28,199 nucleotides of DNA from Bacteroides sp. (lineage in GTDB: Bacteria; Bacteroidota; Bacteroidia; Bacteroidales; Bacteroidaceae), in assembly GCA_019412865.1 (NCBI GenBank), contig DXOJ01000582.1:1-28199 (forward strand), in the 5' to 3' direction. The notes under the pieces are model-generated. The model was not told where the DNA came from and searched no databases. It saw nothing but the letters and a program-made list of their open reading frames with translations. The stretch's first letter is position 1. The number at the start of each line of letters is the position of its first letter. Shown piece by piece: positions 4,492-28,199 of the stretch. Position numbers and translations under genes: made by a program.

Positions 4492-4566
4492 GCACGGATT
4501 ATACGGATTTCATGGTTTTTAGAATAGAATAGGTAAAACAACAGTGTTAATCCGTGTAATCCGTGC
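4492..4566. repeat. Inverted repeat of ATCCGTG type between CE7 and GH2 genes
   Basis: The left arm 4492-4509 and right arm 4549-4566 (AATCCGTGTAATCCGTGC) are 18 bases each and match at 17 of 18 as an inverted repeat, separated by 39 bases. Each arm is itself two copies of an ATCCGTG-like word. The right arm ends on the last base of the CE7 stop codon. Similar dispersed ATCCGTGTAATCCGTG elements are, from memory, common in Bacteroides intergenic regions, so this is probably a REP-like element. It could form a large hairpin in the mRNA. No U-run follows on the minus strand, so it is not a classic terminator. Confidence 0.75.
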
Positions 4567-8165: not shown

Positions 8166-8172
8166 AGTTTGT

Positions 8173-10044
8173 CTACGGTTTGATGTAAGCTCCCGGAACT
8201 TCCAACAATTTGTTGGGTTCGTTGAAGCGTTGGTTATCGGGCACATCGCGTTTGCCCAGACCCGCTTGCATAAGTTGCTTCAGTTCCGGCAGGTGATGAT
8301 GATAGATGTCGCGCGGCTCTACACGATGCTTGTGACAGAGTCCGGCTGCCATACCTACTACTTCACCCATCATGCCGGTAGTACGCATCACACGTACCGT
8401 ACCCAAGGCTACATGGGTGCAGCTCATATTGCGGCCTGCCATAAAGAGGTTGTCCACATTGCGCGAATAGAGACAGCGATAGGGAACGGCATAAGGATGA
8501 ATCCAACGATGCACCGTAGCCGACTTGAATTCATTGCCGGGAAAGCGGACACTGTTCACGCTGTCGGGGAAGTGAAGGTCGATGCTCCAAGTTGTGGTAA
8601 ACGAAGCATCCTCGTGCGCCACATTCTTGTCTATATCGTCCTGTGACAGTACGTAGTCGCCCAAGAGACGGCGTGATTCACGTTTGCCTGAAACATACGC
8701 CACCCAGTCGAGGGAACGGTTGGCATACTTCTTATGGTCTTTATAGTGATTCTTCAGATAGCTCCAGTTGGAATATATCACCAAAAGTCCATAGTCGCGT
8801 ACACGTTCAGCTTCGCTGACTTGATTGCGGTTCATACCTGTTTCCCATTTCCACTCGCCCATGGTTACAGGCTCACAGTTTTCAGCGTCAAAGCGCACGC
8901 CATATTCAAAATGAGGGAATGAGGTTTTCTTCTTCATATCCTTGCTATACCATTGAATAGAGGCCCCCATCACCAATGAGTCGGGTTGCTCGGGAGCAAG
9001 GCTCTCACCATATTCATCGCGGCCTTCACGTCCCATAGCCCAATCGGCACCGGCTAAATAGCCTATGGTAGCATCACCTGTGCAGTCGCTAAAAAGAGGA
9101 GCGGTAAGTTCGGTTTGTCCGCCCGTCTCGATATGCTGGATAGTGACTGACGCAATGCGGTCTCCTTGCATCTTCACGGCTACCGCACGCTGAGAGGCAT
9201 AAAGAGTAATGTTCTTTTCGGCATCTATGAAGTCTTCTTTCTTCTGGTCTTCGTAGTAGTCACCCGGTTGTGCATTGCCGGAACGTTCATGACCGAACTC
9301 ACGTATCATACGCCCCAATCCCTGATTAGGCCCCATTTCGATGATACCGCCGAGATGTACACGAATCTCCGACGAGTTATTGCCGCCCAATACAGGACGG
9401 TCATTCACTAGTGCTACCTTACAACCCAATCGGGCAGCAGATGTGGCAGCACACATTCCGGCTATTCCCCCTCCTACTACCACAAAGTCGTATTGATGAG
9501 CGGGCACCGTCTGTTGTTGTCGCAGGCGGGTACGAAGTGCCGCTGTCTCTGCCGTATCCCAGGTAGCGGGTTGCGTGTTCGCATCGGTCGTAAGGTAAAT
9601 GGCATCGCAACGACCGTCGAAACCGGTGAGGTCTTTCAGCGCAAGGGTGGTAGTCCCTGCTTTCAATACTGTCTTTCCGGCAAATTGCCATTGCCAGGAA
9701 TTACCTGTATGTCCTAATGTAGCTTTCAGCAATTTGCCGCCTAAAGCCAGGCGGAATTTTCCGGGACCTTCGGCATCGGTCCAAGGTGAAGTCCAGTTGT
9801 AAGTACGGGCATATACGTAGTAAGTGCCCGCCTGGGGAATGTTGATTTCTGCCGTAGCATCCGCCACAGGGATGCCCATGCCATGTGCCATGAGATAGGG
9901 CGAACCCATCTGATCCATGAACTGCTGGTCGAGCACCCAGCCGCCTCGCTGGCTGAAGCTTTCTGCTTCGATGAGCAGTTCTTCGGCTACAGCCACAAGG
10001 CTACAGGCTACGGCTATGCATGTCAGTAAGAGTTTTTTCATCAC
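8173..10044 (-). CDS. Secreted FAD-dependent oxidoreductase with N-terminal carbohydrate-binding-like domain
   Basis: This 623-residue protein has a signal peptide (about 1-20, AVA-EE). Residues about 23-155 form a beta-sandwich resembling golvesin/CBM-like modules (EAESF...GGW, AGTYYVYAR). An FAD_oxidored (PF12831-type) domain fills the rest. Its dinucleotide site is VVVGGGIAGMCAA with G191, G193 and G196, followed by LGGNNSSEI. Homologues in Bacteroidetes are often auto-named 'xanthan lyase', a label that the Rossmann fold does not support. An FAD enzyme outside the cytoplasm, inside a glycan operon, suggests oxidation of a sugar hydroxyl, perhaps to a keto-sugar. The substrate and electron acceptor are unknown. 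It follows the GH105 gene by 50 bases and precedes the GH36-like gene by 7. Confidence 0.75.
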   Translation of the reverse strand: MMKKLLLTCIAVACSLVAVAEELLIEAESFSQRGGWVLDQQFMDQMGSPYLMAHGMGIPVADATAEINIPQAGTYYVYARTYNWTSPWTDAEGPGKFRLALGGKLLKATLGHTGNSWQWQFAGKTVLKAGTTTLALKDLTGFDGRCDAIYLTTDANTQPATWDTAETAALRTRLRQQQTVPAHQYDFVVVGGGIAGMCAATSAARLGCKVALVNDRPVLGGNNSSEIRVHLGGIIEMGPNQGLGRMIREFGHERSGNAQPGDYYEDQKKEDFIDAEKNITLYASQRAVAVKMQGDRIASVTIQHIETGGQTELTAPLFSDCTGDATIGYLAGADWAMGREGRDEYGESLAPEQPDSLVMGASIQWYSKDMKKKTSFPHFEYGVRFDAENCEPVTMGEWKWETGMNRNQVSEAERVRDYGLLVIYSNWSYLKNHYKDHKKYANRSLDWVAYVSGKRESRRLLGDYVLSQDDIDKNVAHEDASFTTTWSIDLHFPDSVNSVRFPGNEFKSATVHRWIHPYAVPYRCLYSRNVDNLFMAGRNMSCTHVALGTVRVMRTTGMMGEVVGMAAGLCHKHRVEPRDIYHHHLPELKQLMQAGLGKRDVPDNQRFNEPNKLLEVPGAYIKP

Positions 10045-10094: not shown

Positions 10095-11207
10095 TTATCT
10101 CGCCATTTTATAAATTTCATTGCCTGCCATCAAAAAAGCACCAACTCCATAAACCTCCGTCATGTCACGAGTCACTTTCTTCGGGTCGGCACCGATTTGC
10201 TGCACATAACCCAGTTTCCCATTCGGTTCCACAGCCGAGACTAATGCATTCCAGCCTTTTATCATTACAGGAAGATAAATTTCCTTATCCAATAAACCTT
10301 CGTTTATTCCATAAGCAATGGAATAGACAATGAAAGTAGTGCAACTCGTTTCCGGTGATGGATAAGAGGCTGGATCCAAGAGACTGGCATGCCAGAAACC
10401 GTCCGGATGCTGTAATCCGGCAACACGGGTAGCCAGTTTTACAAATAATTCCTCATAGAATTTGCGGTTCTTATCTTTCTTGGGCAGTTCCTTTAATATT
10501 TCAACCAGACCACCAAGCACCCAACCGTTGCCACGTCCCCAAAAGACTTTCTTACCATTGGCTTCGCGCTTATCAAAATAACGCCAGTCACGGTAGAACA
10601 AGTTTTCTTCTTTATCGAACAGGTAATCATAAGTCGCTTTATACTCACGATTCATAAATTTGATATATTTTTTCTCTCCGGTCAGCATATACAGTTTGGC
10701 ATATACAGGGGGAGCCATAAAGAGAGCATCACACCAAGTCCAACGTTCCAAGGTCTTTAAGTCTCCCTCCACCAGCTTGAAACTACCTTCGGATGGATGA
10801 TTGACAATCCATTCCGTACGGGCGAGCGTAGGGATAATCATTGCTTCGTCTTTGTACTTGCGGTATAAATCCAAAAAGGACTGTGATACAGCGATGTCAT
10901 CAGCATGGTAAAACCGTTTGTCCGGCTGCCAGCAATTCCGTCGGCCTATACGGGTAAGCCACTTATAATATGTATCATCATTGTCTTCTTTTTCAGCCAA
11001 TTCCGCCCAATCCACCATGCCGACATAAAGAGCACCTTGCGGCCAGTTCAAGTCGTCATGTTCAGGAGCGGGGTGTGGATTGGCAATCTGCCAATCCGCC
11101 ACCTTTCGCATGATAGACTTTATTTCTGCTTTTTGAAAAGGAATCTCTGTTGCCATTATAAAAACGGAACATAACAGAGACGCTCCCAATAAAAGTGTTT
11201 TTTTCAT
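10095..11207 (-). CDS. GH105 unsaturated uronyl hydrolase
   Basis: This 370-residue protein has a signal peptide (about 1-20) and a GH105/GH88-type (alpha/alpha)6 barrel. Recognisable motifs are FYHADDIAVSQ (about 99-109), WTWCDALFMAPP with the catalytic Asp candidate D160, and WGRGNGW (223-229). The family hydrates the 4,5-double bond of unsaturated galacturonic or glucuronic acid left by polysaccharide lyases, releasing the sugar. Family length is normal. Its presence implies a lyase step upstream, yet no lyase is recognisable in this window. It lies 29 bases after the GH3/PA14 gene in the same operon. Confidence 0.85.
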   Translation of the reverse strand: MKKTLLLGASLLCSVFIMATEIPFQKAEIKSIMRKVADWQIANPHPAPEHDDLNWPQGALYVGMVDWAELAEKEDNDDTYYKWLTRIGRRNCWQPDKRFYHADDIAVSQSFLDLYRKYKDEAMIIPTLARTEWIVNHPSEGSFKLVEGDLKTLERWTWCDALFMAPPVYAKLYMLTGEKKYIKFMNREYKATYDYLFDKEENLFYRDWRYFDKREANGKKVFWGRGNGWVLGGLVEILKELPKKDKNRKFYEELFVKLATRVAGLQHPDGFWHASLLDPASYPSPETSCTTFIVYSIAYGINEGLLDKEIYLPVMIKGWNALVSAVEPNGKLGYVQQIGADPKKVTRDMTEVYGVGAFLMAGNEIYKMAR

Positions 11208-11236: not shown

Positions 11237-13690
11237 TTACAGTTCAACTGTAGCCTTTAAAGGCAATTGACTGGAAGCAGGCCCGACTAAGATCTCAAAG
11301 TCTCCTTTTTCCACTACAAAGCGGTGTTGATTCATATCGTAAAAAGAGAATGCATCCTCATCCAACACAACAGAAACCCGCTTCTTCTCCCCTTTCTTCA
11401 AGAATACCTTTTCATATCCTTTCAGTTCTTTCAACGGACGGGGAACAGAAGACTGTACATCATGCACATACACTTGTGCCACCTCCGAAGCATCCATCTT
11501 ACCTGTATTCTCTATATCAAAGCTAATGGTAACCTGATGCTCACCCGTTTTCTCCGCAGCCATATTACTATAAGCGAAAGTAGTATAGGACAAACCGTAG
11601 CCAAACGGATAGAAAGGTTCTTTTCCCGAACGGTCGTATCCACGATAACCGACAAAAACACCTTCAGAATAGTCTACACGCTTAATCTCCGCCTTTAAGT
11701 TCTCGTAATAACTGCCGTGCACTGGATTATCTTCCCATTTCCGCTCGATAGAAATCGGTAGCTTTCCGCTTGGAGAAATCTTACCGGTCAGGATTTCAGC
11801 AATTGCCTGACCGCCTTCCTGCCCCGGATACCAGGCCATAAGAATCGCTTTTGCAGCATCATACCAGTTGGTGAAATCCACACCGCCACCGGCGTTCAGT
11901 ACAACCACAACATTGGGATGCATAGACGCAATCTTCTTGATAAACAATTCCTGATAGCAAAGCAAGGCAAACGGACGGTCAAAGCCTTCGCCTTCGGTAT
12001 TACTATTGAAACCTGTACAGAACACAACATTATCCACCTTTGCCAATCCTTGACGAAGTTTCGCCTCATTAAGGCTATAAGCATTAAAACGAATGATGGC
12101 CGAAGAAATATTATCAAAGAATTCAATCCGGAAACGGTATTCCTTACCACCCTCAACCGGCAGTTCAACTTCACGGCTAGAGTAGGAATGATTTCCCCAA
12201 TCTCCCGTAATATGCTTGTCATTCACAAACAGACGATAACCGTCATCACCACCGATATGAAGTTTCAACTGACCGTCAGTTTGTGGCATGTAGCAGGCTG
12301 TCCAACGGACAGAGAATCCATCTGTCGGAAAGCCGTCCAAAGGTGCCCCATATCCCCAGTCATAATCAACAGAGGATTCCGTGCGTATTACTTCAGGCTG
12401 GCCCGAAAGGGTCTTGTTTTTAAAGTATTCAGCTTTGAAGCCTTTCATCTGACGATTAGCATCAGTATAAAACTCATGGACAATATCTTCATAAATCACA
12501 TCATCCGTCAATAGTAACAGATTCTTTTTCTTCAATTCCTTCAAGCCTTGAGCCACTGAGACGGTAGAAAAAGGAGTGACAAACCCACTACCGCCACCGG
12601 TAGGAATCAAATTTGCATTAGGCCCCATCACGGCTGTCTTTCCTTTCAGCGGGAGCAAGTTTCCTTCATTCTTCAACAGGACTACACCCTCGCGCGCCAG
12701 CTCTAAAGCTGTCTGGCGGGAGAAAGGATTATCCTCTGCTATGTTGCTGTCTTTCTGTTCCTTATCCAGCATACCATAAGCAATCAGAGTTTGCAGGATG
12801 TGTTGTACTTTCAGGTTGATGGTTTCTTCTGTCACTGTGCCCGCTTTGATAGCAGGCAACAGATTCTCCAAATTCATAAAACGTCCTTTCGGCATTTCGA
12901 GGTCAAGTCCGGCGTTAGCAGCGCCTACGGCGGAATATACGGAAGTCCAGTCCGACATCAGAATACCTTTGAAGCCCCAAAGATTGCGCAAGACATCAAT
13001 ATTCAGCCATTTATGTTCGGTGGCATGGACACCGTTCAACAGATTGTAACTGTTCATTACGGCGCCGACATTGGCTTCCTGTACAGCTTTTCGGAAAGCC
13101 GGGAAATAGATTTCCTGCAAAGTACGTTCGTCTATGTCAGAGCTGGCATGGTGGCGGCTCCATTCCTGGTTGTTGGCAGCAAAGTGTTTGATTGTAGCAA
13201 TGACTCCTTCCGATTGTACTCCCAGGATATATTGTTTCGCCGTTTCACCTGTCAAGTAAGGGTCTTCACCGAAGTATTCAAAGTTACGGCCGCACAACGG
13301 AGCACGATAGATATTCACGCCCGGACCAAGCAGGATATTAACTCCTCTTGCCTTGGCGTCCTGTCCCAAGCCTTGCCCTAATTTATAAAGTAATTCCCGG
13401 TTCCAAGTAGAAGCGGAAAGTATTCCGGAAGGATATAAAGTGCTCTTGGGAGCATGATTACGAATTCCCTGCGGCCCGTCAGCCAACTTGATTTCAGGTA
13501 TTCCCAAACGGGGGATGGCACGCAGAGAAAAACTGGTATATCCGGAGATATACTCTATTTTCTCTTGCAAAGTCATTTTTGTTACAATGTCCTTCGCACG
13601 TTGTTCGGCTTGGGGAGTGATTGTCTGTGCATGGGCTGTGATACCTACCATAAATAAAAACACACCTACGCTTCGTATTAATTTTCTCAT
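11237..13690 (-). CDS. GH3 beta-glucosidase-type enzyme with PA14 insert
   Basis: This 817-residue protein has a signal peptide (about 1-21). The order is the GH3 N-terminal barrel (about 35-310), then the C-terminal alpha/beta sandwich split by a PA14-like insert (about 414-540, GGDDGYRLFVND), then a fibronectin III-like domain (about 720-815). The nucleophile is D247 in LMSDW, the substrate-holding KHFAANNQE is at about 168-176, and the acid/base candidate is E568 in NTEGEGFDR. Such enzymes usually release non-reducing beta-glucosyl residues. The PA14 module often shapes the active-site rim and selects short oligosaccharides. It starts 9 bases after the stop of the second GH3, so the two are surely co-transcribed. 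Beta-xylosidase or another beta-glycosidase activity is possible. Confidence 0.88.
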   Translation of the reverse strand: MRKLIRSVGVFLFMVGITAHAQTITPQAEQRAKDIVTKMTLQEKIEYISGYTSFSLRAIPRLGIPEIKLADGPQGIRNHAPKSTLYPSGILSASTWNRELLYKLGQGLGQDAKARGVNILLGPGVNIYRAPLCGRNFEYFGEDPYLTGETAKQYILGVQSEGVIATIKHFAANNQEWSRHHASSDIDERTLQEIYFPAFRKAVQEANVGAVMNSYNLLNGVHATEHKWLNIDVLRNLWGFKGILMSDWTSVYSAVGAANAGLDLEMPKGRFMNLENLLPAIKAGTVTEETINLKVQHILQTLIAYGMLDKEQKDSNIAEDNPFSRQTALELAREGVVLLKNEGNLLPLKGKTAVMGPNANLIPTGGGSGFVTPFSTVSVAQGLKELKKKNLLLLTDDVIYEDIVHEFYTDANRQMKGFKAEYFKNKTLSGQPEVIRTESSVDYDWGYGAPLDGFPTDGFSVRWTACYMPQTDGQLKLHIGGDDGYRLFVNDKHITGDWGNHSYSSREVELPVEGGKEYRFRIEFFDNISSAIIRFNAYSLNEAKLRQGLAKVDNVVFCTGFNSNTEGEGFDRPFALLCYQELFIKKIASMHPNVVVVLNAGGGVDFTNWYDAAKAILMAWYPGQEGGQAIAEILTGKISPSGKLPISIERKWEDNPVHGSYYENLKAEIKRVDYSEGVFVGYRGYDRSGKEPFYPFGYGLSYTTFAYSNMAAEKTGEHQVTISFDIENTGKMDASEVAQVYVHDVQSSVPRPLKELKGYEKVFLKKGEKKRVSVVLDEDAFSFYDMNQHRFVVEKGDFEILVGPASSQLPLKATVEL

Positions 13691-13699
13691 TATCGAATT

Positions 13700-15907
13700 T
13701 TACTCTGTTAAGTCTATCTTTACTTTCTGGTCTTTTACCTGGATATAATACTCTCCGATTTCCAAGAATCGTTTGCCGTTCCCGTTAACAAAACCAAAAT
13801 CGCGTTCCAAGTCAACATCAAAACGGAATACTTTCGTTTCACCAGCCTTGATTAATTGCTTCTCAAAGTGTTTCAACTCTTTCACCGGACGGGTAATAGA
13901 ACAATAAGGGTCGGAGATAAACCAATGTACCGTTTCCAAGCCATCACGTTTTCCTGTATTCGAAACAGATACTTCTACTGAAAGTTTTCCACCACGTTTG
14001 ACTGTTGTTACAGAAGGAGTAACAGTGCCATATTTGAATTCTGTATAGCTCAGTCCGTGCCCGAACGAGTATAAGGGCTCACTCGTGATGTCCTTATAGA
14101 AGCCCTGATGTCCACGTCCACTCTTGCGACGATTATAATAGATAGGAATCTGCCCAGTTGAATAAGGGAAAGTCATAGCCAGTTTACCGGAAGGGTTGAT
14201 ACGTCCAGACAATATTCCAGCCATTGGAAGCGCACCATTCACACCCGGCTGCCAAATTTCCAATATAGCATCCGAAATCGGTTCCAACCGGTTCAATTCC
14301 AACGGGCGTCCGTTCACCAATACCAGTACGATGGGTTTGCCGGCTTTCTTCAGCTCTTTTGCCAGTTCTTCCTGAATTTGAGGCAATGCAATAGAGGAAC
14401 GAGAAGCATTCTCACCACTCCAAGTCATCATTTCGCCCAGACAAAGAACAACGACATCAGACCAACGGGCTGCTTCTAATGCTTCTTCAAAACCTTTTCG
14501 ATTATCCCCTTGTGTGCTACAACCTAACGCATAACGCAGTTCAGCTTTTCCCACAAACTCGGTTGCCAGTCCGTTATAGAGCATTGCTACATCCGTATCT
14601 TTCCCATGTCCACACCAAGAACCTAACAAGTCCCAGCCATTTTTTGCCATGGGTCCTACTACGGCAATCTTCTTCTTATCTGTCAGAGGCAGTATCCCGT
14701 TCTCGTTTTTCAACAATACCATCGACTCTGCTGCAAGCTGGGCTGCGATATCCATACTCTGCGGACGGAAGAAACGTTCTTTCTCATTTGTAACCGGGGT
14801 ATAAGGGCGTTCAAACAAGCCCAAACGAAATTTCACCCGCAAAACACGACGAACTGATTCATCAACCTGCGCCATCGTTATCTTTCCCTCTTCGACAAGC
14901 TCTTTCATATAACGGTCGTAAGCATGAGACATCATATCCATCTCAAGCCCTGCATTGAAAGCATACACTGCAGCTTCTTTTTTGTTAGCTGCCAATCCCT
15001 GATTTTTCAATTGTTCGATTGCCCCCCAATCGGAAACTATAAATCCATCATGCCCCCAACGTTCTTTCAATATTTCCGTCATCGTATAGTGATTGGCCGA
15101 TCCGGGAACTCCGCTGATATCATTAAAAGAGCTCATCAGGGTGGCCGCCCCCGCTTTCACACCCATTTCATAAGGCAGTAGATAGGTATCCCAAAGAGTT
15201 TGAGCAGAGATTTCAGTATAAACATAATCACGTCCGGCTTCGGAAGCGCCATAACCGATATAATGTTTCAGACAAGCCGCTATTCGGTCTTCGGCCGACA
15301 TATCATCTCCTTGATAACCACGCACCGAAGCGGCGGCAAACACTCCATTAGCATATGGATCTTCACCATATCCTTCGGCTACACGTCCCCAACGAGGGTC
15401 ACGCGCCACATCAATCATCGGCGAGAACGTCCAGTCCACTCCCGACATACGGGCTTCCTGTGCAGTAACGGCACATGCTTTTTCCACCAGTTCAGGATTC
15501 CATGAACAAGCCTGTCCCAAAGAAATAGGATATACAGTACGAAATCCGTGAATGGCATCGTAACCAAAAATAATAGGAATACCCAAGCGGGATTCTTCCA
15601 TAGCCTTCTTTTGCACATTATTACGCAAAGCCGGATTCGTATCGTAGTAAATCAACGAACCGATTTCCGCCGGCACTTTCTTAACCTCTTCTCCTATATT
15701 ATTCACATTGTTATTCCGCCCCATGGTATATTGGTTTAGTTGCAGAATTTTCTCTTCCAAAGTCATGCGTGACAACAAATCATCAACCCGTTTTTCAATC
15801 GGTGCTTTGGCATCCTTATACAAAGGAATACTTTTTTTATCTTTTGCCGAAAGGGCACATGTTACTTCCAACAGGCATAAACCGAAAATTAATACTTTTC
15901 TTTTCAT
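13700..15907 (-). CDS. GH3 beta-glucosidase-type enzyme (BglX-like)
   Basis: This 735-residue protein has a signal peptide (about 1-20) and the standard GH3 three-domain order without PA14: barrel (about 35-365), alpha/beta sandwich (about 390-615) and fibronectin III-like end (about 645-730). D293 in IVSDWGA is the nucleophile and E499 in WSGENASRS the acid/base candidate. DARDPRWGR-like text (VARDPRWGR, about 167-175) and KHYIGYG (about 214-220) match the BglX group of periplasmic beta-glucosidases. Residues MDIAAQLAAESMVL match the 14-codon scrap at 1732-1776. Beta-glucosidase is the likeliest activity, with xylosidase possible. Confidence 0.88.
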   Translation of the reverse strand: MKRKVLIFGLCLLEVTCALSAKDKKSIPLYKDAKAPIEKRVDDLLSRMTLEEKILQLNQYTMGRNNNVNNIGEEVKKVPAEIGSLIYYDTNPALRNNVQKKAMEESRLGIPIIFGYDAIHGFRTVYPISLGQACSWNPELVEKACAVTAQEARMSGVDWTFSPMIDVARDPRWGRVAEGYGEDPYANGVFAAASVRGYQGDDMSAEDRIAACLKHYIGYGASEAGRDYVYTEISAQTLWDTYLLPYEMGVKAGAATLMSSFNDISGVPGSANHYTMTEILKERWGHDGFIVSDWGAIEQLKNQGLAANKKEAAVYAFNAGLEMDMMSHAYDRYMKELVEEGKITMAQVDESVRRVLRVKFRLGLFERPYTPVTNEKERFFRPQSMDIAAQLAAESMVLLKNENGILPLTDKKKIAVVGPMAKNGWDLLGSWCGHGKDTDVAMLYNGLATEFVGKAELRYALGCSTQGDNRKGFEEALEAARWSDVVVLCLGEMMTWSGENASRSSIALPQIQEELAKELKKAGKPIVLVLVNGRPLELNRLEPISDAILEIWQPGVNGALPMAGILSGRINPSGKLAMTFPYSTGQIPIYYNRRKSGRGHQGFYKDITSEPLYSFGHGLSYTEFKYGTVTPSVTTVKRGGKLSVEVSVSNTGKRDGLETVHWFISDPYCSITRPVKELKHFEKQLIKAGETKVFRFDVDLERDFGFVNGNGKRFLEIGEYYIQVKDQKVKIDLTE

Positions 15908-16000: not shown

Positions 16001-18067
16001 CTAATTATCTTTTTTCAGATGTTTATCAGCAAACTGTACATACTGCGTCCAGTCATACAAATTAATGTCATGTTGCCCCGAACGGATATGATAACCAATG
16101 GTCCCGGACAACACTGGCTCGTTGACAGCCGGCATCTCCTTCACCGGTAATCCCGGCAGACCGAACAATTCATAAACAGGAGAGGCATAAAGTCCGGAAA
16201 GGAACTCTCCTCTAGGATCGGCCCAACAGTCTTCTTCCGCGCTAGCGATATAAACAGGACGAGGAGCTATCAGAGCTATGAGTTCATGCTGATCAACAGG
16301 CAGGTTTTCTTCCTTATCGTTATATTGCCAGAAATTCCGACAGAACCAATGTGTAAATTGCCGATTTACAGCCCGCACGGTTTCTCCGACTTTTCTTCTC
16401 GATAACGCTGCACCACCACAACCTGAATCATTTGAGATGACCAATGCAAAACGCGGGTCTATCGCTCCGGCCCATAAAGTAGTTTTTCCAAGGCGCGAAT
16501 GTCCGAAAATTGCTACACGTTTTGCGTCAATGTCTTTGTCTGTCTCAAAATAGTCCATTACACAGCTCATTCCCCATGCCCAAGCAGCCAAAGTTCCCCA
16601 TTCATCGTCGGCCGGTCGTTTTTGCCCTTTCTTATAAAATAACGGATGAACCCCATTACGGAATGCATCATCAAAGTCCGGATCAATATCTCCACGATAA
16701 AAGGTAGCCAGCCCATAACCATGTTTCATCAGCATTTCTACCGGCCATCTGGAAGCAGCATTACCACGTGGAAACATGTATTTTCTGCCATAAGTCAGTA
16801 ATTTTTCTTCCGACGGCAAAGTAATGCCTTCATCCGGGTGAATGGCATGATTACCCTTAAAGTTTATTCCGAAGAACATGGGTACCGCTCCTTGCCGTTG
16901 GTTAGGCAGATAGATAAGTACTGTCATATAATGCTTTTCATCTTTTGTGAGATAAACAGCCACTTCCCGCCGGGTAGCCAAGCCATTCAATGCGTTTTTG
17001 TCTTCGGTCAGCACCCGGAAATGTAAATCCTTCGGATGTGCCGGAGCTTTGCCATACATCTGCGTTTCGAAAAGATGAATCAATTCGGGACGACGTTTCT
17101 TCACCCATTCTTTTATGGTAACCACTTTTTGCCCGTTGTTTAGGGTCAATACGTCAGGAAGTGTATAAGCCGGAACTTTGCTTTCATCATAATTGACTTT
17201 CGCGGCAGGTTCTTTTAATTCAGTTAATTCCGTAATCCGGTCCGGATGCAACACTGCTCCATGGGCGGCTTTTTGAGCCACTTCCCGCTGATCATAATTC
17301 ATACCTTCCGGATAATACGGGTTTCCTACGACATTGCGCTCGAATATTTTCTCAAACCATGTACAAGCGGCCGTATAACGTCCGATTTTCAAATCGAGAT
17401 GATAACCGTCACGATTCATGTGGTCACCGACAAATGAAGTACGGGCATTCTGAATAGCTGTACCCGTAGGGATTATCATTTTTATTTTTGTTAGTTTCGA
17501 TGCCTTATCTACTGCTTTTACAATAGAATGATACATCGTTAGCTGATCCCGCCCATAATTCTTAAATCCGGTATTTGTTGCATTTGCAGCATATGCCCAT
17601 GTCTGATGCAACATCAATTCCGTTTTCTTAGGAAGACGTACTTTCACATATTCCACCAATTCCGGCAACGATGTCTCATAAGTCTCATACATGCCTGAGA
17701 AAGGACTAGCTTGCTGAAGGCTGACATAATCCCACTCTTCATCCGCTAGTACTGTTCCCAACGCCATTTTTTTCTTTTCTATCTTCTTACCGTCCAGACT
17801 GATCTTCCGATAGGCATAAGCGGAATCATTACTACGAGCATTCTTTACATGACGTTCCAAAGAACAACCTGCTATATACATATTGCCAATAATCACAGGA
17901 ATACCTTCCGCATTTGCCAGCTCATACAAATACTGTTCCACCGCATCTTGTGAGAAGCTATTCCCAATAGCCAATATTTTAATAGCCTTTTGCTGCGCAC
18001 ATGCTCCACTCGCAAGAAATGATAGCAACAAAAGCAGAATTACAATCAGAACTTTATTTTGTTTCAT
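16001..18067 (-). CDS. DUF4886-CE15 fusion: SGNH-like hydrolase joined to glucuronoyl esterase
   Basis: This 688-residue protein starts at the ATG at 18067 (MKQNK..., signal peptide to about ACAQ, residue 25). A TTG-started extension to 18100 gives a non-signal-like lead. Residues about 27-275 are DUF4886 with S37 (GNSFS), SLQQASPFSG, and D220/H223 in RDGYHLD. Residues about 300-688 are CE15: nucleophile S524 in FGHSRLGK, then NDSGCGGAALSRR (D547), SAEEDCWADPRGE (E611, E612, D613) and H666 in SGQHDIN. The triad acid may be D547 or one of E611-D613, because CE15 enzymes use two alternative positions. CE15 cleaves esters of (methyl-)glucuronic acid. The two esterase-like domains on one chain suggest that they act on neighbouring acyl groups of one substrate. 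It follows the DUF4886 lipoprotein by 33 bases. Confidence 0.85.
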   Translation of the reverse strand: MKQNKVLIVILLLLLSFLASGACAQQKAIKILAIGNSFSQDAVEQYLYELANAEGIPVIIGNMYIAGCSLERHVKNARSNDSAYAYRKISLDGKKIEKKKMALGTVLADEEWDYVSLQQASPFSGMYETYETSLPELVEYVKVRLPKKTELMLHQTWAYAANATNTGFKNYGRDQLTMYHSIVKAVDKASKLTKIKMIIPTGTAIQNARTSFVGDHMNRDGYHLDLKIGRYTAACTWFEKIFERNVVGNPYYPEGMNYDQREVAQKAAHGAVLHPDRITELTELKEPAAKVNYDESKVPAYTLPDVLTLNNGQKVVTIKEWVKKRRPELIHLFETQMYGKAPAHPKDLHFRVLTEDKNALNGLATRREVAVYLTKDEKHYMTVLIYLPNQRQGAVPMFFGINFKGNHAIHPDEGITLPSEEKLLTYGRKYMFPRGNAASRWPVEMLMKHGYGLATFYRGDIDPDFDDAFRNGVHPLFYKKGQKRPADDEWGTLAAWAWGMSCVMDYFETDKDIDAKRVAIFGHSRLGKTTLWAGAIDPRFALVISNDSGCGGAALSRRKVGETVRAVNRQFTHWFCRNFWQYNDKEENLPVDQHELIALIAPRPVYIASAEEDCWADPRGEFLSGLYASPVYELFGLPGLPVKEMPAVNEPVLSGTIGYHIRSGQHDINLYDWTQYVQFADKHLKKDN

Positions 18068-18100: not shown

Positions 18101-19927
18101 TTACTGCACCTGCTTTATAGACAACGCATTTAAATGTCCCTCTGTCGCAGCTCCGCTCAAACCGACAACCTCAATAACAACTTTACCGTCAGCAGTTGGC
18201 TCTACATTTTCAAACTTAGTGATATATTCTCCATAAGGAACTTCTTCAAAAGTTGCATACTCTCCCTCATTAGTACCTAACTTCAAACCTGTCCTAATCT
18301 CTTTCGGACCGATAGTATTTTTTCCTTTCAGCGTATATTCAGATGTACGGGCCGCCTTGCTACCACCAAAGCGAACAGCCAATATCGTGAAATTATATTT
18401 ACTTGCAGAACTCAAGCCTGTTACTTCAACTGTTGCCGGTTCAGTATTTCCGGCGTTAGCAACGCCACTTACAATAAGCCCGTCTTTCCATGCCGACATC
18501 GGAAATTCCACTTCATCCACAACCATTACTTTATCCGGTTCTCCAGATACTCCATTATAGACAGAAGTAAATCCGCCAGCTACTCTCACACTTACATTCG
18601 TAGCATTAGCCTTTGCATCGGACAATAACAATGGAGCAGCACTTACGGAAGAAGTATAATTATTCCATGGAGTAGCGGACGTTATAGTCGAACTACCAAA
18701 ATCAACATAAATAGGAACAGCCAATAGGTCCGAATCGACACGTTTCTTCAAATCAACTAACTCCGTCACGGTATTCGGGCTCTGTACAGCCATATGAGCT
18801 GCTGTTTGAGCAACCTTTATAGTTTTCTCATCCAACCCTTTCGGGGCATATGTATTACCTACCACATTCTTTCCCGTAATCTTCTCAAACCAGACACAAG
18901 CAGCAGTATAGCGCCCGTAAGTTGTTTCCAAATGATAGTATCGCGTGGCGTCACCATTGTCAAGACGAGTGAAATTGTCGCCGATAAAGGAAGTACGTCC
19001 ATTCTGAATAGCAGTTCCAGCAGGAATAATTATACTGATATTCTGGTCGGACGCTGCTTCATTTACTGCATTGACAATAGCACTGTACATTGTCATCTGA
19101 TCATTATCATAGTTTTTAAAATCAGTATGATTTGAATAAGACGCATAAGCCCACGTCTGATGTAACATCAGTTTCATATATTTGTTAGTGGCACACCCTT
19201 TTACATAATTAACCAAATTACTCAAATAAGGCTTGTATGTATCATATTGTCCGGATTTGCCACTCACTTGCTGAAGACTGATATAATCCCATTTGTCATC
19301 TTTCAAAGCTGTTTCCAGTGTAGTATTCGCCTTAGTAATCTTGCTCCCGTTCTCAATTTTGCGATAACTATATTTTGCCTGATTACCGTTAGCATTGGCC
19401 CAATGAGTTTCCAAAGAGCATCCTCCGATGTACATATTACCGATAATAGCTTCAATGCCTTCCGCTTTCAACAATTCATACAGATATTGCTCGACTGCAT
19501 CCTGCGAAAAACTGTTGCCAATTGCCAAAATACGAAGCGGAGATTGTTTGACCGTTACAGATATTACTTTAGAAAGCCGTTTAGTCTCTCCTGGAGATTC
19601 CACTTTGATGAAAGCCTTTCCTGCTTTCACACCTTCAACCTTTACATTGGTACCATTGTCCTCTATGATTTTCAGTATTTCCGGATCGGAAGATGTCCAT
19701 ATATATTCCAGGTTTTCAGCTTCCGTACTGCTAAAAATTGGATTAATAGCCATTTCATCACCAGTCTCCAAGCTAACAACATCTTCCACAATCATCCAAT
19801 GATCACCCTTGATAGGATTGTCCACGTCATCGTCAGAACAAGATATAAACGCATTACCTATAAACAGAAATATCAGGAACATGCAAGATTTCCATGCTAT
19901 GTCACTTTTTAAAAATACATTTTTCAT
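18101..19927 (-). CDS. Surface lipoprotein with Ig-like, DUF4886 and C-terminal beta domain
   Basis: This 608-residue protein has a lipoprotein signal with C30 followed by SDDD, the acidic pattern linked to surface export in Bacteroidetes. A Big_2-like Ig domain spans about 45-127 and DUF4886 about 131-395, with candidate nucleophile S139 in AIGNSFS. A C-terminal beta-rich domain (about 405-608, starting IYVDFGS and ending LNALSIKQ) follows and may bind carbohydrate. Block V differs from the two paralogues: instead of RDGYHLD it reads DATRYYHLE, so H332 is present but the Asp three residues before is Arg, with an insertion (about 322-331). It may be a catalytically altered or non-catalytic version. 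It is the first gene after the hairpin at 19992-20013. A surface-acting esterase or glycan-binding role is inferred. Confidence 0.78.
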   Translation of the reverse strand: MKNVFLKSDIAWKSCMFLIFLFIGNAFISCSDDDVDNPIKGDHWMIVEDVVSLETGDEMAINPIFSSTEAENLEYIWTSSDPEILKIIEDNGTNVKVEGVKAGKAFIKVESPGETKRLSKVISVTVKQSPLRILAIGNSFSQDAVEQYLYELLKAEGIEAIIGNMYIGGCSLETHWANANGNQAKYSYRKIENGSKITKANTTLETALKDDKWDYISLQQVSGKSGQYDTYKPYLSNLVNYVKGCATNKYMKLMLHQTWAYASYSNHTDFKNYDNDQMTMYSAIVNAVNEAASDQNISIIIPAGTAIQNGRTSFIGDNFTRLDNGDATRYYHLETTYGRYTAACVWFEKITGKNVVGNTYAPKGLDEKTIKVAQTAAHMAVQSPNTVTELVDLKKRVDSDLLAVPIYVDFGSSTITSATPWNNYTSSVSAAPLLLSDAKANATNVSVRVAGGFTSVYNGVSGEPDKVMVVDEVEFPMSAWKDGLIVSGVANAGNTEPATVEVTGLSSASKYNFTILAVRFGGSKAARTSEYTLKGKNTIGPKEIRTGLKLGTNEGEYATFEEVPYGEYITKFENVEPTADGKVVIEVVGLSGAATEGHLNALSIKQVQ

Positions 19928-20053: not shown

Positions 20054-21649
20054 TTATTTAACCGTTATATCCATTAGCTTCACCCAACCGGAGTCTAACA
20101 GGTTATTTTTAACTGCCATCCGCAGCCCTATTGTATTATCTTTAGTGGTATCCACAAGACCTACCGCCCACTTATAAGCACCCACGGAAACTCCTTTCAG
20201 TGTCAAATCAAAATTATAAGTAGTCGGTTTATTCTTCAACCACGTAGATAAATCTGTCTGGGTATCAACAAATACCTTTTTTACTTCGTTCTTATCGTCC
20301 AACAAAGCAAATGCTACTTTATAGCGTTGATTCCATTGCGGAATATTAGTGGGACAATATCCCCATCCCATATTATTCCAACGATGAACGATCGTTATTT
20401 TCTCGCCACTCTTAACATCTTTAGGCAATGAAACCATATCAGGATATAAACGATAACCACCTTCGGTAACAAAACGCTGTACAAGTCCGAAACATTTGAA
20501 CCAAGACATGGTTTCGCTTCCTGCACGAAAATCCATCATATTGACCCGTGCCTCAGCTGATGCGTCGAATTCTCCCTGACGTACATCTTCCGGATGCCCT
20601 TCACGATACCCCATAGGATCAAGCCAATAACGATGCTGGCTAACAATCCATCCTCCTTCCATTATGATAGGACGTTTATAGTTCCAACGAGCAGCAAACT
20701 GTTTTTCCCAATCCTGATAATAACCGTTCATACCAAAAGCATCATGACGCAAACTATATCCCTTGTTTATAGCACTCTCAAGCAAGCCTTCCGTTTCAGG
20801 GTCTAAAGCCCCCCAGCCGGATGTGTTTTCAGCACCAATCAAACGATGATAGTTAATAACTAACGGCACTTTGGTAAAGCATCGGGAATACAAATCTGTA
20901 ATCCATTCGAAAACCTGCTTCTTTTTTGAATGATCTTCATAAATCATTGTATGTGCTTCACCCCATTTCCCCAATCCGTAAGCATCTATAAAGTCTACTT
21001 TATCCGGATCGTTAAATTCCTGTGCCAGTGCTTCGATGAACTTAGTATATTTTTCCTGAAAGATCTTATCATCCGGAAAAGGTGATTTACGTGCTAATGC
21101 AGTCGCCTCGTTAGTAGGTCCCGGGTCTTTATACCAATGTGCACCGGCGTCAAAAACATATTGGGGAGTATTTAATCCTTGGTCACGTCCATCCACTACA
21201 ATTCGGAATGACAAACGCATCCCACGATCCAAAACACTTTTCAGCAATCTGGTCAAACGGGCAGTCGGATCTTTCCATATATATTTCCCTTCTTCCGGCT
21301 CCAATGAACTCCAACTTGTCCGTATATAGCAGGTACTGGCATAATCTGAAACTTTTACTGGTTCTGCCAGTTCCGGTACAGAAACATTATCGTAACCTTC
21401 TGTAGTCCAGAAATTTTCATCCCAACCACGTCCCATATAGATCACCCATCCGTTTAATGGATTACGCAATACTGTTTTCTTATCCGGAGTGATTTTCACT
21501 GTGACATTACCGGCAGGCAGTTCACCACTTCCATTTCCTTCATCACCATTATTATCACCACCCGAACATGCGGATAAATTTGCTGAACAGAAAAGCAAAA
21601 GAACTACACTCCAACTTTTCATAACAGATATTGTTTTTTCTATTTTCAT
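20054..21649 (-). CDS. DUF4832/DUF4874-type lipoprotein, putative clan GH-A-like glycosidase
   Basis: This 531-residue lipoprotein has LSAC with C28 followed by SGGDNN. The start could be M1 or M10. Residues about 60-370 begin with VLRNPLNGW, the hallmark opening of DUF4874/DUF4832 proteins, and look like a TIM barrel. Residues about 395-530 are the beta-sandwich DUF4832 end. E231 in GLGKWGEAH (end of strand 4) and E331 in IIMEGGW (strand 7 position) are spaced like the acid/base and nucleophile of clan GH-A enzymes. Position directly after SusE is where surface endo-enzymes usually sit, so it may make the first cut in the glycan. I know of no activity established for the family. A carbohydrate-binding surface protein is the alternative. 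Confidence 0.7.
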   Translation of the reverse strand: MKIEKTISVMKSWSVVLLLFCSANLSACSGGDNNGDEGNGSGELPAGNVTVKITPDKKTVLRNPLNGWVIYMGRGWDENFWTTEGYDNVSVPELAEPVKVSDYASTCYIRTSWSSLEPEEGKYIWKDPTARLTRLLKSVLDRGMRLSFRIVVDGRDQGLNTPQYVFDAGAHWYKDPGPTNEATALARKSPFPDDKIFQEKYTKFIEALAQEFNDPDKVDFIDAYGLGKWGEAHTMIYEDHSKKKQVFEWITDLYSRCFTKVPLVINYHRLIGAENTSGWGALDPETEGLLESAINKGYSLRHDAFGMNGYYQDWEKQFAARWNYKRPIIMEGGWIVSQHRYWLDPMGYREGHPEDVRQGEFDASAEARVNMMDFRAGSETMSWFKCFGLVQRFVTEGGYRLYPDMVSLPKDVKSGEKITIVHRWNNMGWGYCPTNIPQWNQRYKVAFALLDDKNEVKKVFVDTQTDLSTWLKNKPTTYNFDLTLKGVSVGAYKWAVGLVDTTKDNTIGLRMAVKNNLLDSGWVKLMDITVK

Positions 21650-21714: not shown

Positions 21715-22965
21715 TTATTTATATGCTACAATCTTTTTATTTCGCAAATCTAAAACAACAAGAGTACTTGACGGAACATTAAAGTATGAGTTACGTTGCT
21801 CACCATCAGCTCCTCCAGTAATTGCTTGAGACACACCATATGTAAGTGTCTTTTGCTGGCGCAATCCATTCAATAATGCAGGAGAGAAGCAATAAGTATT
21901 ATTGGCTTTACCACTTATATTTGCTATAAGGAACTTTATTTGGCTTCCGGATATGGGAGTACCTTTATGTACAAGTACTTGCGGATCGGCCAAACTTGGC
22001 GTAAAGTTTCCATCTACAGGCGTCCCCCAACCATTTATATTACCCTGCAACCACAAATTCGTTACAGTAGTAGTTATTATATCTTCAGTAGCACTTCCAT
22101 TATATCTCCATTCGAGTGTCAATGGTTCCAGTTGTTTACTTGGCGGATAGACAGCAACTGTTTTCGCTTGCATATCAACAACAACGCGATGCTCACCTGT
22201 TTCCGTAATCTTCCATCCGACAGCCGCTCCTTTTTGTCTCATAACTACAGATAATGTATCTATTTTATCGGCTGACAATGCAACATCATCCCCACTTTCG
22301 GGACTGATATAATTAATCTCACTTTCAAACTCAACAGGTATCTTCAACACTCCCGGTTTCAAATCCAATAAAGCTGCATACAGATATTCATTTTCCTGTG
22401 TCAATGTCATTTGTATCTTATCCGCACCTACCGCATCACCTTCCAGGAATACTTTATCGGCATCAAACACAATAGGTTTATAAGGACGCACATCTACATT
22501 GATTGTTCTCACTTCAGGCATCGCATATTTAGAACCACCATCCCATTTGGCAAGTACACGGAACTGCAAAGTAGCGGGTTTAGTATAAGTCCTTCCCCAC
22601 TTTTCTACCAATAGCTTCTGCAATTGCTCGGTCGTATAGCTTCTGGAGAACACACCTTCATCCTCTTCTGTGCGTACACTGGAAGCAAAATCATTGCCTT
22701 CAATATCTAACTTTGTGACATAAGTAACCGAATATTCTTCCGGCATCTGGCGCGCTTCTGTCCAATCAAAAGTCAAAACCACTTTATTAGGTTCATTGCC
22801 GTCGAGTTCGATATTTGTACTTGACGCATGTACTTCCAATGTTTCCGCAGCAGCAAAAAAATCACTGTTGTCCACATTATCATCATCATTGCATGCACTT
22901 AAACAAATCCAAACAAATAACGGCAGTATATTATAGAATGATATAATTTTTCTCATATTTATCAT
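21715..22965 (-). CDS. SusE/SusF-like surface glycan-binding lipoprotein
   Basis: This 416-residue protein has the lipobox LSAC with C25 followed by NDDD, a strong surface-export pattern. An N-terminal SusE-type Ig domain (about 38-160, FDWTEARQMPEEYSVTY) is followed by two further beta domains (about 165-285 and 305-416, with WLQGNINGWG typical of SusE/F starch-binding-like modules). Such proteins hold the glycan outside the cell to feed SusC/D. Ligand-binding residues cannot be identified with certainty. The gene lies 19 bases after SusD. It may start at M1 or M4. Confidence 0.82.
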   Translation of the reverse strand: MINMRKIISFYNILPLFVWICLSACNDDDNVDNSDFFAAAETLEVHASSTNIELDGNEPNKVVLTFDWTEARQMPEEYSVTYVTKLDIEGNDFASSVRTEEDEGVFSRSYTTEQLQKLLVEKWGRTYTKPATLQFRVLAKWDGGSKYAMPEVRTINVDVRPYKPIVFDADKVFLEGDAVGADKIQMTLTQENEYLYAALLDLKPGVLKIPVEFESEINYISPESGDDVALSADKIDTLSVVMRQKGAAVGWKITETGEHRVVVDMQAKTVAVYPPSKQLEPLTLEWRYNGSATEDIITTTVTNLWLQGNINGWGTPVDGNFTPSLADPQVLVHKGTPISGSQIKFLIANISGKANNTYCFSPALLNGLRQQKTLTYGVSQAITGGADGEQRNSYFNVPSSTLVVLDLRNKKIVAYK

Positions 22966-22984: not shown

Positions 22985-24919
22985 TTATCTACACCATCCA
23001 GGCAATTGTCTCAGATTAGTATTCTTATCAATATCATCCTGAGGAATCGGCCACCAATAACTAATAAATCTTCTGGTTTGATAAAGGGTACGTTTATAAT
23101 ATTCATCTCTTTCGGTACTTTTAGCCAAGGCATTCATTCCATAGAATTTTCCATTCAAAGCTGTTTCAGCTTCTTTCCAACGACGTAAATCATCAAAACG
23201 TATACCAGCTTCACAATTCAACTCTACACGTCTTTCACGACGAATCAAATCACGCAATTGAGCTTCTGTGACAGGTATCTGATCCGCTCCCTTTCCATAC
23301 TGAGGAATACCAGCTCTATAACGGACTCTATTAATATAATCCAGAATTTCTGTCTCATTATCCGTATATGTGCCCGTTGCCACACTATACTCATATAATG
23401 ATTCTGCATAGCTCAGATAAGCTTCTGCCAAGCGATAAAGTACTCCTTGACGTTTTTTGTAAGTACCGCTACTAGAGGCAGGAATCGCAGAGGGGTCAAC
23501 ACGTTTACGTATCAAATACCCTGCACTAGGAGAGTCATGAGAAGGACCACCATCTTCACCACCTGAAAAGAAATTGGCAAACTTATTTTTTGCATTCGAC
23601 TTATCTTTTCCCCAGTGATACTCTTCATTATAAAGTACTGAAATATAAAAACGAGGTTCACGACCGCAATACATCTTATATGTATTTTTAGGAACAATCA
23701 CATGCTCTGTTTCCTGTTCAGTACCGCCTTTTGTAGCATACATCCATGTAGTCTTATATGACTCGTCAACTGTAGAATATCCCGTCTCACTGTATCCTGA
23801 TTCAGAATTGATAACTGGAGTAGCTCCATCATTTGTATAACCTGTGATAGGCACTAAACCATTGTTCATAAAGAATGCATCCACCAATGATTGGGTAACA
23901 CCAATAGCACCTGCACCACCCATACTACGAGGATTAGCCTGACGGTCAAAATAACCTGCATCATCATATGTTCGTGGGAAAAGGATTTCCATATTTCCTT
24001 GATTATAACGTAACATCAATGCATTCTGATAAGATTGAAATGCATCTACATCATCTCCAATCGTCTCAATATATAACTTATGCCCCGCCTTTTCAGCCTC
24101 ATCTATCAGCAACTTATTAGCATCAACAGCGGTCTTCCAACGTTCTGGTTTGAAGGTTGAATCAAAAATAGAAACACCATCACAGTTTTTCATATTCACC
24201 ATGTCCGAGTCCTGGTTACCATTCACCAAAGGACTAGCAGCAAATGTCAATAAACGGGCACGCATAGCGAGACAAATAATAGAAGTGATACGCCCATATT
24301 TATTATCTTCATCGTAATAAGCCGGTAGCAATTTAGAAGTTTCTAACAATTCATTTGCAGCCCAATCCACTACTGTATTAAACGGCTCCTGCTTCAACAA
24401 CAAGGTTTCACCTGTAATCTCTTCTGTTGCATCACGAATAATAGGAACTGCTCCGTAAGTCATAGCCATCACAGCATGAAAGTAAGCAATGAAAAAGCGA
24501 CATTCGGCTTTCATATAATTCACTTCCTTCTCTGTTACATCAGGAAGTGCATGCGCATATTTAATAAAGATATATGCTTGGCGAATACGCATAGGAAAAG
24601 TCTCCCAGTAGTTAATCACGCCACCGCTTGCAGACGTCCAGTTTCCATTCTGATAAAGAATAGCCTTAAATCCCTGTGATTCCCAACCAACAGAAGGTGC
24701 CAACTCGTCTGCTACTGCATCTGCACCATCATAATTATAGAACTTGGGAGTAGCATTATATATATAAGCTAACCAACGTTCCATATTTGTTTTATTCTCA
24801 AATACAGTTTCTAATGTCAACTGATCATCCGGCTCCTTATCCAAATAGTCAGAACAAGAAGATAGAGAAAACATGGCAATCGTGCCTAATGCTATATATT
24901 TCCTTATTTTATTTTTCAT
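22985..24919 (-). CDS. SusD/RagB-family outer-membrane glycan-binding lipoprotein
   Basis: This 644-residue lipoprotein (LSSC, C22, then SDYLDKEPDDQL) has the typical SusD opening. It has the TPR-rich helical fold, with RQAYIFIKYAHALPDV and MKAECRFFIAYFHAVMAMTYGAVPI in the first half. Near the end are LNCEAGIRFDDLRRW and a FYGMNALAK region of the RagB/SusD domain. It caps the SusC barrel and captures glycan for import. It is somewhat longer than average, with inserts around 370-480. The spacing is 11 bases after SusC, and the two are always paired functionally. Confidence 0.93.
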   Translation of the reverse strand: MKNKIRKYIALGTIAMFSLSSCSDYLDKEPDDQLTLETVFENKTNMERWLAYIYNATPKFYNYDGADAVADELAPSVGWESQGFKAILYQNGNWTSASGGVINYWETFPMRIRQAYIFIKYAHALPDVTEKEVNYMKAECRFFIAYFHAVMAMTYGAVPIIRDATEEITGETLLLKQEPFNTVVDWAANELLETSKLLPAYYDEDNKYGRITSIICLAMRARLLTFAASPLVNGNQDSDMVNMKNCDGVSIFDSTFKPERWKTAVDANKLLIDEAEKAGHKLYIETIGDDVDAFQSYQNALMLRYNQGNMEILFPRTYDDAGYFDRQANPRSMGGAGAIGVTQSLVDAFFMNNGLVPITGYTNDGATPVINSESGYSETGYSTVDESYKTTWMYATKGGTEQETEHVIVPKNTYKMYCGREPRFYISVLYNEEYHWGKDKSNAKNKFANFFSGGEDGGPSHDSPSAGYLIRKRVDPSAIPASSSGTYKKRQGVLYRLAEAYLSYAESLYEYSVATGTYTDNETEILDYINRVRYRAGIPQYGKGADQIPVTEAQLRDLIRRERRVELNCEAGIRFDDLRRWKEAETALNGKFYGMNALAKSTERDEYYKRTLYQTRRFISYWWPIPQDDIDKNTNLRQLPGWCR

Positions 24920-27900: not shown

Positions 27901-28199
27901 TCCCTTCTCATCTGAAACGTTACCTGTTACCTTTATACCTTTTTGTTGTGTAGCTTGCTGTACTTTAGGAGCTTCTGGTATCGAAATTGTAATTTGTCTT
28001 CCCGACATCTTATAATTCAGTCCTGTCTCTGAAAACAGCTCTTTTAACACAGCATCTATTTTCTTATTGGAAACTGAAATGGAGACTTTGTTATTCAGAT
28101 TTTTCTGAACATTAGCAGAGTATATAAAAATATATTTACTATGTTTTTCGATATAATCTAAAATATCTTTAACTGTAGCATTCTCATACTGTACTGAGA
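24931..28199 (-). CDS. SusC/RagA TonB-dependent transporter with STN domain (5' end beyond window)
   Basis: The frame is open to the right edge, giving at least 1088 residues. A GTG at 28050 is not the true start, because the upstream codons encode an STN (secretin/TonB N-terminal) domain (ATVKDILDYIEKHS, VSISVSNKKIDAVL). Next are a carboxypeptidase-regulatory-like domain (VTGNVSDEKGEPLIGVTI), the DEVVVVAYG box, the plug (PLVLVDGIER, DAAASAVYGVRGANGVILI) and the 22-stranded barrel ending in EIKF with the terminal Phe needed for barrel assembly. It imports oligosaccharides powered by TonB. STN-bearing SusC proteins in Bacteroides typically signal to a FecR-type anti-sigma and an ECF sigma factor, so control of the locus by such a pair just beyond the right edge is expected. 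Confidence 0.95.
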   Translation of the reverse strand, partial: SVQYENATVKDILDYIEKHSKYIFIYSANVQKNLNNKVSISVSNKKIDAVLKELFSETGLNYKMSGRQITISIPEAPKVQQATQQKGIKVTGNVSDEKGEPLIGVTIILKNDSTVHSLTDMNGNYSITVPAKRSVLSFRYIGFVPKEEVVDNRKVVNVQMVEDVGQLDEVVVVAYGAQKKESVVGSITTIEPAKLKVSTSRSLSNNLAGTVAGVLAVQRSGEPGYDNSTFWIRGISTFQKVGGDPLVLVDGIERELNNIDPEEIESFSVLKDAAASAVYGVRGANGVILINTKRGQVGKPRVTVKAEFAATQPIKLPEYIGAADYMQLLDDVLIDTGQRPIYTDKIAKTRANYDPDLYPDVDWVDAVSKDHASNQRVTVDISGGTEILRYSFVAAVYNERGILERDKKREWDPSIKLQRYNVRSNVDLKLSPTTQLRFNIGGYLQDRNSTTQSVSEIFNRAFRSVPFQFPAQYSTGQIAGTEESNVWAMATQMGYQRTSASKIETLFSLEQDLKFITPGLKVKGVFSFDRYSTGTVKRSTKPDIYNAASGRTEEGELMLTKKENGSNTLGHESTGTYGTKSLYMEATLSYDHTFAEKHAVSGMLLFNRRHFDKGEKLPYRTQGMAGRASYTYSGKYIGEFNFGYNGSENFAKGKRYGFFPSGAIGWIVSEESFMQPLRRTISKLKLRASYGQTGNATLNGRRFAYLSTINDSWNDLKQYNWGTESEYNRNGMAEGEFAVPNLTWEVVNKANVGLELGLFNGMVDLQFDLFDERRHNIFMPRESIPITAGFIKQPWDNYGKMKNQGAEVTLNINKQFNKNLFVSLMGTLTYAHNEITEKDEPAAVVGTNRAETGYPTGQNRGYIAERLFTNDDFADVAAGTLKEGIPAQTFTAKLRPGDIKYVDVNQDGKIDAFDVSPIGGPINPEIVYGFGLNMKWKDLDFGVLFQGIGRTWNVLSGNIIPASNKGTTYNIFTNYQDRWTVDNPSQDVFYPRLDYGTNANNSQSSTWWLRNMSFLRMKNIELGYSFPKRWMQNMLISGARIFVRGSNLLTFSKFDLWDPEVTSDSGASRTGAVYPAMKSISAGFEIKF

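Follow-up and report, generated by a model that had tools for sequence, protein, structure and literature searches.

Several described enzymes carry a CE15 glucuronoyl esterase and a second catalytic domain on one chain. CesA of Ruminococcus flavefaciens consists of CE3 and CE15, and in its AlphaFold model the two active sites face each other (PMC11345330). CE3 is placed in the Lipase_GDSL group as "GDSL-2/CE3" (PMC9487903), and relatives of CE20 with added CE15 domains have been reported (PMC12313940). Elsewhere CE15 is joined to glycoside hydrolase (GH) domains, as in a CE15-GH8 multi-enzyme chain of Bacteroides eggerthii (PMC8417218) and in OtCE15C, which is a CE15-GH106 chain (PMC10807430). 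The CE15 enzymes tested in PMC10807430 act on terminal or branching uronates, not on those of the backbone, and the polysaccharide utilization loci (PULs) of AsCE15 and BiCE15 contain GH88, GH2, and GH3 (PMC10807430). The SGNH acetyl esterase FjoAcXE removes an acetyl group next to methylglucuronic acid (MeGlcA) (PMC5863359). In the present study we analyzed a 28,199-nucleotide stretch of DNA from Bacteroides sp. (contig DXOJ01000582.1; hereafter, the window), which encodes on its minus strand (16001..18067) a 688-amino-acid chain that joins DUF4886 to CE15 and is probably a dual esterase. The first-pass annotation of this DNA noted no characterized enzyme of such an architecture. In the literature searched, outside of which most subscription journals lie, we found none that combines DUF4886 with CE15, but the pairing of an SGNH esterase with CE15 is already known from CesA, which together with the CE20-CE15 proteins comes nearest, and it is DUF4886 as the SGNH partner that is new here.

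Results

The frame of the fusion gene, recognized by its open reading frame, Pfam, PDB sequence matches, and a homolog search, runs along the minus strand without interruption between an ATG at 18067 and a stop codon at 16001. The program-made list of open reading frames places the start at a TTG at 18100 (699 amino acids), directly behind the stop codon of the preceding gene, but we infer the ATG to be the start because, by eye, a typical signal peptide opens there. This predicted Sec signal peptide (residues 1-24; 17996..18067, minus strand), with cleavage between ACA and QQ and a helix at residues 2-21 in the structure model, was read by eye, without a signal-peptide program; since no acidic residues are seen after its cysteine, it suggests the periplasm as the likely site of the protein. 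DUF4886 is followed directly by CE15 with nearly no linker. The predicted model of the full 688-residue chain is confident over both domains (predicted template modeling score, pTM, 0.90), and the packing of DUF4886 against CE15 is also predicted with confidence.

The fusion is real and well conserved. With the full chain as the query, 7998 candidates were scored and 3887 of them matched; among the 120 listed, which here and below are the top matches within a length band and do not represent frequencies, 81 carry both domains, the combination of PF16227 and CE15 that the first-pass annotation had proposed to look for, and 39 carry CE15 only. Comparison of the window with G263, a genome of the same genus, revealed purifying selection on both parts, with ratios of nonsynonymous to synonymous substitution rates (dN/dS) of 0.059 for DUF4886 and 0.038 for CE15, at a dS of ~1.1-1.2 that is near saturation. 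We regard it as extremely improbable that the gene is an artifact of misassembly or a chance frame over two genes. The identity of the window to the same-genus genome G001, which is 97.8% over 1355-13631, drops to 79% over 13698-15934, and the contig could be chimeric at this break; the break, however, lies outside the fusion gene, between the two GH3 genes, and reflects either a join in the contig or recombination between two versions of the PUL. Many homolog clusters carry both domains, and the independent genomes G263 (692 amino acids) and G267 (690 amino acids) hold both full domains in one frame. A chance fusion or frame artifact is ruled out by these two frames, together with the 81 two-domain homologs listed and the purifying selection.

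The CE15 domain (approximately residues 291-688; 16004..17197, minus strand) was delimited by PDB alignment to PvCE15 from Phocaeicola vulgatus, residue comparison, and Foldseek. The Pfam family GCE_fung (CE15; PF22244) matches residues 487-636 (E 1.2e-32), and PvCE15 (8q6s) aligns over residues 285-685 (E 7e-149), so the domain exceeds the Pfam span; Foldseek comparison of the fused-chain model with 8q6s gave a TMt of 0.94. S524, R525, K528, E562, D613, W615, and H666 align without gaps with PvCE15 Ser264, Arg265, Lys268, Glu302, Asp353, Trp355, and His406, which comprise the triad, oxyanion, and sugar-holding residues according to the available text of PMC10807430, whose numbers are throughout those of the 8q6s chain positions plus one. 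Because it aligns with Asp353, D613 is assigned as the acid of the CE15 triad, and S524, D613, and H666 are invariant in all 81 aligned fused proteins (that of the window and 80 of the 81 two-domain matches, P0002 being omitted as the same chain with a longer start). Whereas the first-pass annotation had left the acid as D547 or E611-D613, D547 as the main acid is ruled out, given that the 81 fused proteins mostly have cysteine (38), aspartate (23), or glutamate (13) at this position. D547 would be an auxiliary acid at most, and its position presumably matches that of the additional acid of OtCE15A.

The DUF4886 domain (residues 30-271; 17255..17980, minus strand), defined by Pfam, alignment, the model, and Foldseek, covers the whole PF16227 profile (1-242 of 242; E 1.6e-111), and the DUF4886 structure 4i8i was matched by PDB sequence search over residues 21-287 (E 9e-119) and, with the fused chain itself, also by Foldseek. 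An SGNH-like alpha/beta fold emerged from structure comparison of a stand-alone paralog from the window (1779..2642, minus strand; 287 amino acids; Pfam and alignment), which is 72% identical to the fused DUF4886. The serine of SGNH Block I (S37) and the D-x-x-H motif of Block V (D220-x-x-H223) are both present, and the S37/D220/H223 triad is kept in 77 of the 81 aligned fused proteins. In a 62-row set of DUF4886 domains, which does not include P0065, P0066, and P0081, the serine and histidine are invariant. The Pfam and PDB matches, the conserved residues, and the confident model with its SGNH fold thus agree with the picture drawn in the first-pass annotation of a secreted chain with an SGNH-like and a CE15 domain: the chain bears a predicted signal peptide, its DUF4886 has the SGNH fold, and its CE15 is intact. 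S37, D220, H223, S524, D547, E611, D613, and H666 all occupy the positions given to them there.

A search with the DUF4886 part alone (residues 25-285) yielded 3055 matches, and a Pfam rescan of nine proteins from the homolog sets found DUF4886 in eight. Of 80 kept CE15 loci from named genomes, four (L002-L005) were found to encode DUF4886 within the CE15 chain and one more (L009) has it in an adjacent gene, although strongly diverged copies could escape this detection. In L009 and L114, where DUF4886 and CE15 are separate neighboring genes, the CE15 protein has an extra C-terminal extension of nearly 300 amino acids that by eye has a phosphodiesterase-type look. A different CE15 protein, from genome G035 (L082:1498-3897, minus strand), has an N-terminal GH88-like domain whose match (E 3e-5; 23.6 bits) falls short of the 26.6-bit curated cut-off, and a near-identical chain exists in G007 (L084); this combination also points to glucuronate release.

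Across 149 same-genus genomes, a DUF4886 match was found in 45 and a near-complete one, covering at least 200 of 242 positions, in 28, with that of G300 in two pieces. The surroundings were inspected in 27 of the 28 (G408 was left out), and an orthologous PUL was defined as DUF4886 beside GH2, GH3, or GH36-like genes that are at least 57% identical. DUF4886 lies within such a PUL in 17 of the 27 genomes and elsewhere in 10. Within the PUL it is a stand-alone protein in 10 of 17 (G001, G271, G290, G397, G379, G375, G383, G385, G260, and G388), is fused to GH3 in three (G419, G391, and G056; single frame confirmed), is fused to CE15 in three, and is broken in one (G300). The CE15 fusion is complete in G263 and G267 and shortened in G316, where the frame stops after 335 of 398 CE15 positions, before the histidine, through either real loss or sequencing error. 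G391 and G056 have extra DUF4886 copies outside the PUL. Several of the ten neighboring genes scanned in G263 form a mannan-type locus (GH26, GH130, and epimerase), which was not counted in the PUL. Because G001, G263, and G267 each hold a single DUF4886 in the whole genome while their GH88 matches number 17, 24, and 1, respectively, DUF4886 looks like a pathway part with a changing partner, i.e., a dedicated esterase.

Traces of loss and partner exchange were also found. CE15-only proteins of the Bacteroides ovatus type have CE15 domains 81-85% identical to that of the window, and the stretch that follows their similar signal peptide aligns with fused residues 265-291, i.e., the DUF4886 end and the junction. 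When ten CE15-only rows and P0079 were aligned with P0001 and compared with 500 shuffles, P0011 scored 74 versus 39 for the best shuffle, and P0009, P0010, P0027, P0041, and P0044 exceeded all shuffles by less (47-59 versus 37-46). P0022 and P0033, which have different starts, did not rise above the shuffles in this junction alignment; P0048, which by eye starts too late, and P0115, whose signal peptide by eye is a plain one, have no meaningful score, and P0079 begins within fused-type sequence. Because of this remnant behind the signal peptide, the B. ovatus-type proteins appear to descend from a fused form and to have shed the core of DUF4886. In G379 (L168), a related PUL half is 89-93% identical to the window and most of the DUF4886-CE15 gene is gone: the equivalent of window 16257-17675, a segment that reaches from within DUF4886 almost to the CE15 end, is missing at L168:13710-13713.

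In the CE15 tree, fused rows as a single clade were strongly rejected (p 1.8e-42; 40 versus 44 rows), but this test counts later losses as evidence against one clade; with losses allowed, a branch with support 0 already sets 51 of the 84 rows apart from the rest, and the CE15 tree alone fits either one fusion with losses or several fusions. A quick DUF4886 tree (79 of 116 domains) needs five changes of the CE15-fused label, four of them forced by well-supported branches. A trimmed tree has 50 rows; it omits 15 named ones that are degenerate, long-branched, probably incomplete, or single-partner and, apart from P0008, takes in only some quarter of the CE15-fused rows. In this tree neither the CE15-fused domains (approximately unbiased (AU) test, p 0.006; 23 versus 27 rows) nor the GH3-fused domains (AU p 0.003; 11 versus 39 rows) form one clade, and therefore exchange or joining of partners has taken place repeatedly.

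The fusion gene lies in a SusCD-type PUL of the window, with the SusC/SusD pair adjoining carbohydrate enzyme genes, all on the minus strand and assigned by Pfam. Upstream are genes for a SusC-like TonB-dependent transporter that runs to the window end (24931..28197), a SusD-like protein (22985..24919), a SusE-like protein (21715..22965), a DUF4832-like protein (20054..21649; below the curated cut-off), and a second DUF4886 protein of 608 amino acids (18101..19927; DUF4886 at residues 132-380). The last has a weak Ig-like (Big_2) region below the cut-off and no Pfam match above it in the C-terminal part (approximately residues 390-608), and by eye it looks like a surface lipoprotein. Downstream, GH3 (13700..15907) is the immediate neighbor, followed by GH3 with a PA14 domain (11237..13690), GH88 (10095..11207), a flavin adenine dinucleotide (FAD)-dependent oxidoreductase (8173..10044), a GH36-like enzyme (Melibiase, partial match; 6099..8246), an AXE1 (CE7-like) esterase (4566..5864), GH2 (2655..4451), and the stand-alone DUF4886 paralog. 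The oxidoreductase, which has an N-terminal Golvesin-like match below the cut-off, may provide an oxidative step in this sugar-degrading locus; its frame overlaps that of the GH36-like enzyme, whose true start may be further in. Pfam scans of the window genes detected neither a lyase nor an evident xylanase.

Discussion

We consider it fairly likely that DUF4886-CE15 serves a Bacteroidota PUL as a dual carbohydrate esterase of the periplasm, with DUF4886 clearing a second ester from the same glycan, and the comparisons above are best explained by a pair of esterases at work on a single glycan. SusCD would bring oligosaccharides into the periplasm, where the fusion enzyme would act. Its CE15 domain would cut the ester on the carboxyl group of a terminal or branching glucuronate, with S524 as the nucleophile, H666 as the base, D613 as the acid, and R525 in the oxyanion hole, while W615, E562, and K528 would hold the sugar. 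DUF4886, as an SGNH-type serine esterase using S37, H223, and D220, would take off the second ester by the standard SGNH route. That ester would most likely be an O-acetyl group on the same imported oligosaccharide; precedents are FjoAcXE, which acts on an acetyl next to MeGlcA, and CesA, which couples CE3 with CE15. Deacylation by DUF4886 might then open the oligosaccharide to CE15, GH3, and GH88. We infer the activity of each domain, the acetyl group, the order of action, the signal peptide, and the compartment.

Several observations speak against this proposal. In a 2022 listing, five SGNH families, DUF4886 among them, have no member whose function is known (PMC9487903). The classical Block III Asn is absent, and by eye Q118/Q119 occupy the presumed Block III position, where 72 of the 81 fused proteins have Gln at Q119; SASA/CE6 members likewise lack this Asn (PMC9487903). 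P0104 lacks the DUF4886 Asp, and three of the 81 fused proteins (P0065, P0066, and P0081) retain DUF4886 without its catalytic residues, all four with an intact CE15 triad. Such degenerate copies would be expected if DUF4886 were a non-catalytic module for binding, positioning, or folding help and CE15 the sole enzyme, but the triad kept in the 77 others, the invariant Ser and His of the 62-row set, which excludes the three degenerate proteins, and the low dN/dS of the DUF4886 part render that explanation quite improbable. The three degenerate proteins and the CE15-only relatives that apparently lost DUF4886 count against an obligate role for the domain. The deletion in G379 and the PULs of G001 and G271, which have no CE15 in the stretches read, also speak against the proposal.

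The partners of DUF4886 bear on the same question. Among the 120 matches listed for the DUF4886 search, 89 carry GH3 and seven carry CE15, which rules out DUF4886 occurring solely with CE15, and a few carry BNR_2, beta-helix, metallophosphatase (phosphoesterase), or Big_2 domains. Because DUF4886 is also joined to GH3 and other domains, a specific action next to the uronate ester is less firmly indicated, although a second ester adjoining the esterified glucuronate is still plausible. Alternatively, both esterases might be active at unrelated sites of the glycan, with the fusion providing only equal dosage and export and neither a common groove nor adjacent esters being involved. This is consistent with the several other enzymes that pair with DUF4886, with the 10 of 17 genomes whose orthologous PUL carries it as a separate protein, and with the CE15 enzymes without DUF4886 that are active or common in relatives, but the retention of the fusion in 81 of the 120 relatives listed and the confidently predicted domain packing make it the less likely arrangement, though not a remote one. 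In a tentative extension of the dual-esterase proposal, to which we give somewhat less than an even chance, DUF4886 might form an unrecognized family of carbohydrate esterases in gut Bacteroidota that serves a single ester decoration of a glucuronate glycan and was attached in turn to whichever enzyme is blocked by that decoration (GH3 or CE15), the fused chain removing a neighboring ester pair per encounter.

The fusion to an enzyme of known chemistry in a defined PUL points to a first candidate substrate class for DUF4886, and the main value of the fusion is that it may lead to an activity for this family. Related genomes, in which the gene is intact, rewired, or lost, offer natural comparisons. 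The chain could also help explain the presence of CE15 in PULs that seemingly do not target xylan, which the available text of PMC10807430 leaves open.

Among known systems, PvCE15 has the same seven active-site residues as the window CE15, and the AsCE15 and BiCE15 PULs share GH88, GH2, and GH3 with the window locus, a likeness based on the description of gene content; the available part of PMC10807430 makes no mention of a DUF4886 or SGNH fusion for these three enzymes. For DUF4886, the structure 4i8i (BACUNI_01406 from Bacteroides uniformis) was solved alone, without CE15, under a title that gives no function. FjoAcXE and PbeAcXE resemble DUF4886 in the SGNH fold, and FjoAcXE acts beside a glucuronate branch, as DUF4886 might. 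PbeAcXE, solved with MeGlcA-Xyl (7toh), is distant in sequence (16-17% versus the DUF4886 paralog), while FjoAcXE comes from a xylan PUL, and the available texts do not mention CE15 on either chain. The CE15-GH8 chain and OtCE15C place CE15 in a multi-enzyme chain as here, but with a glycoside hydrolase rather than an esterase as the partner. CesA differs in that its SGNH part is CE3, an acetylxylan esterase, whereas the N-terminal domain of the window chain is DUF4886 and not CE3; its CE15 domain (8tse) is 21% identical to that of the window by Foldseek, and it is discussed for xylan (PMC11345330), whereas the window locus has no evident xylanase. In layout, CesA has an N-terminal SGNH-type esterase and a C-terminal CE15 glucuronoyl esterase on a single chain, as does the protein described here.
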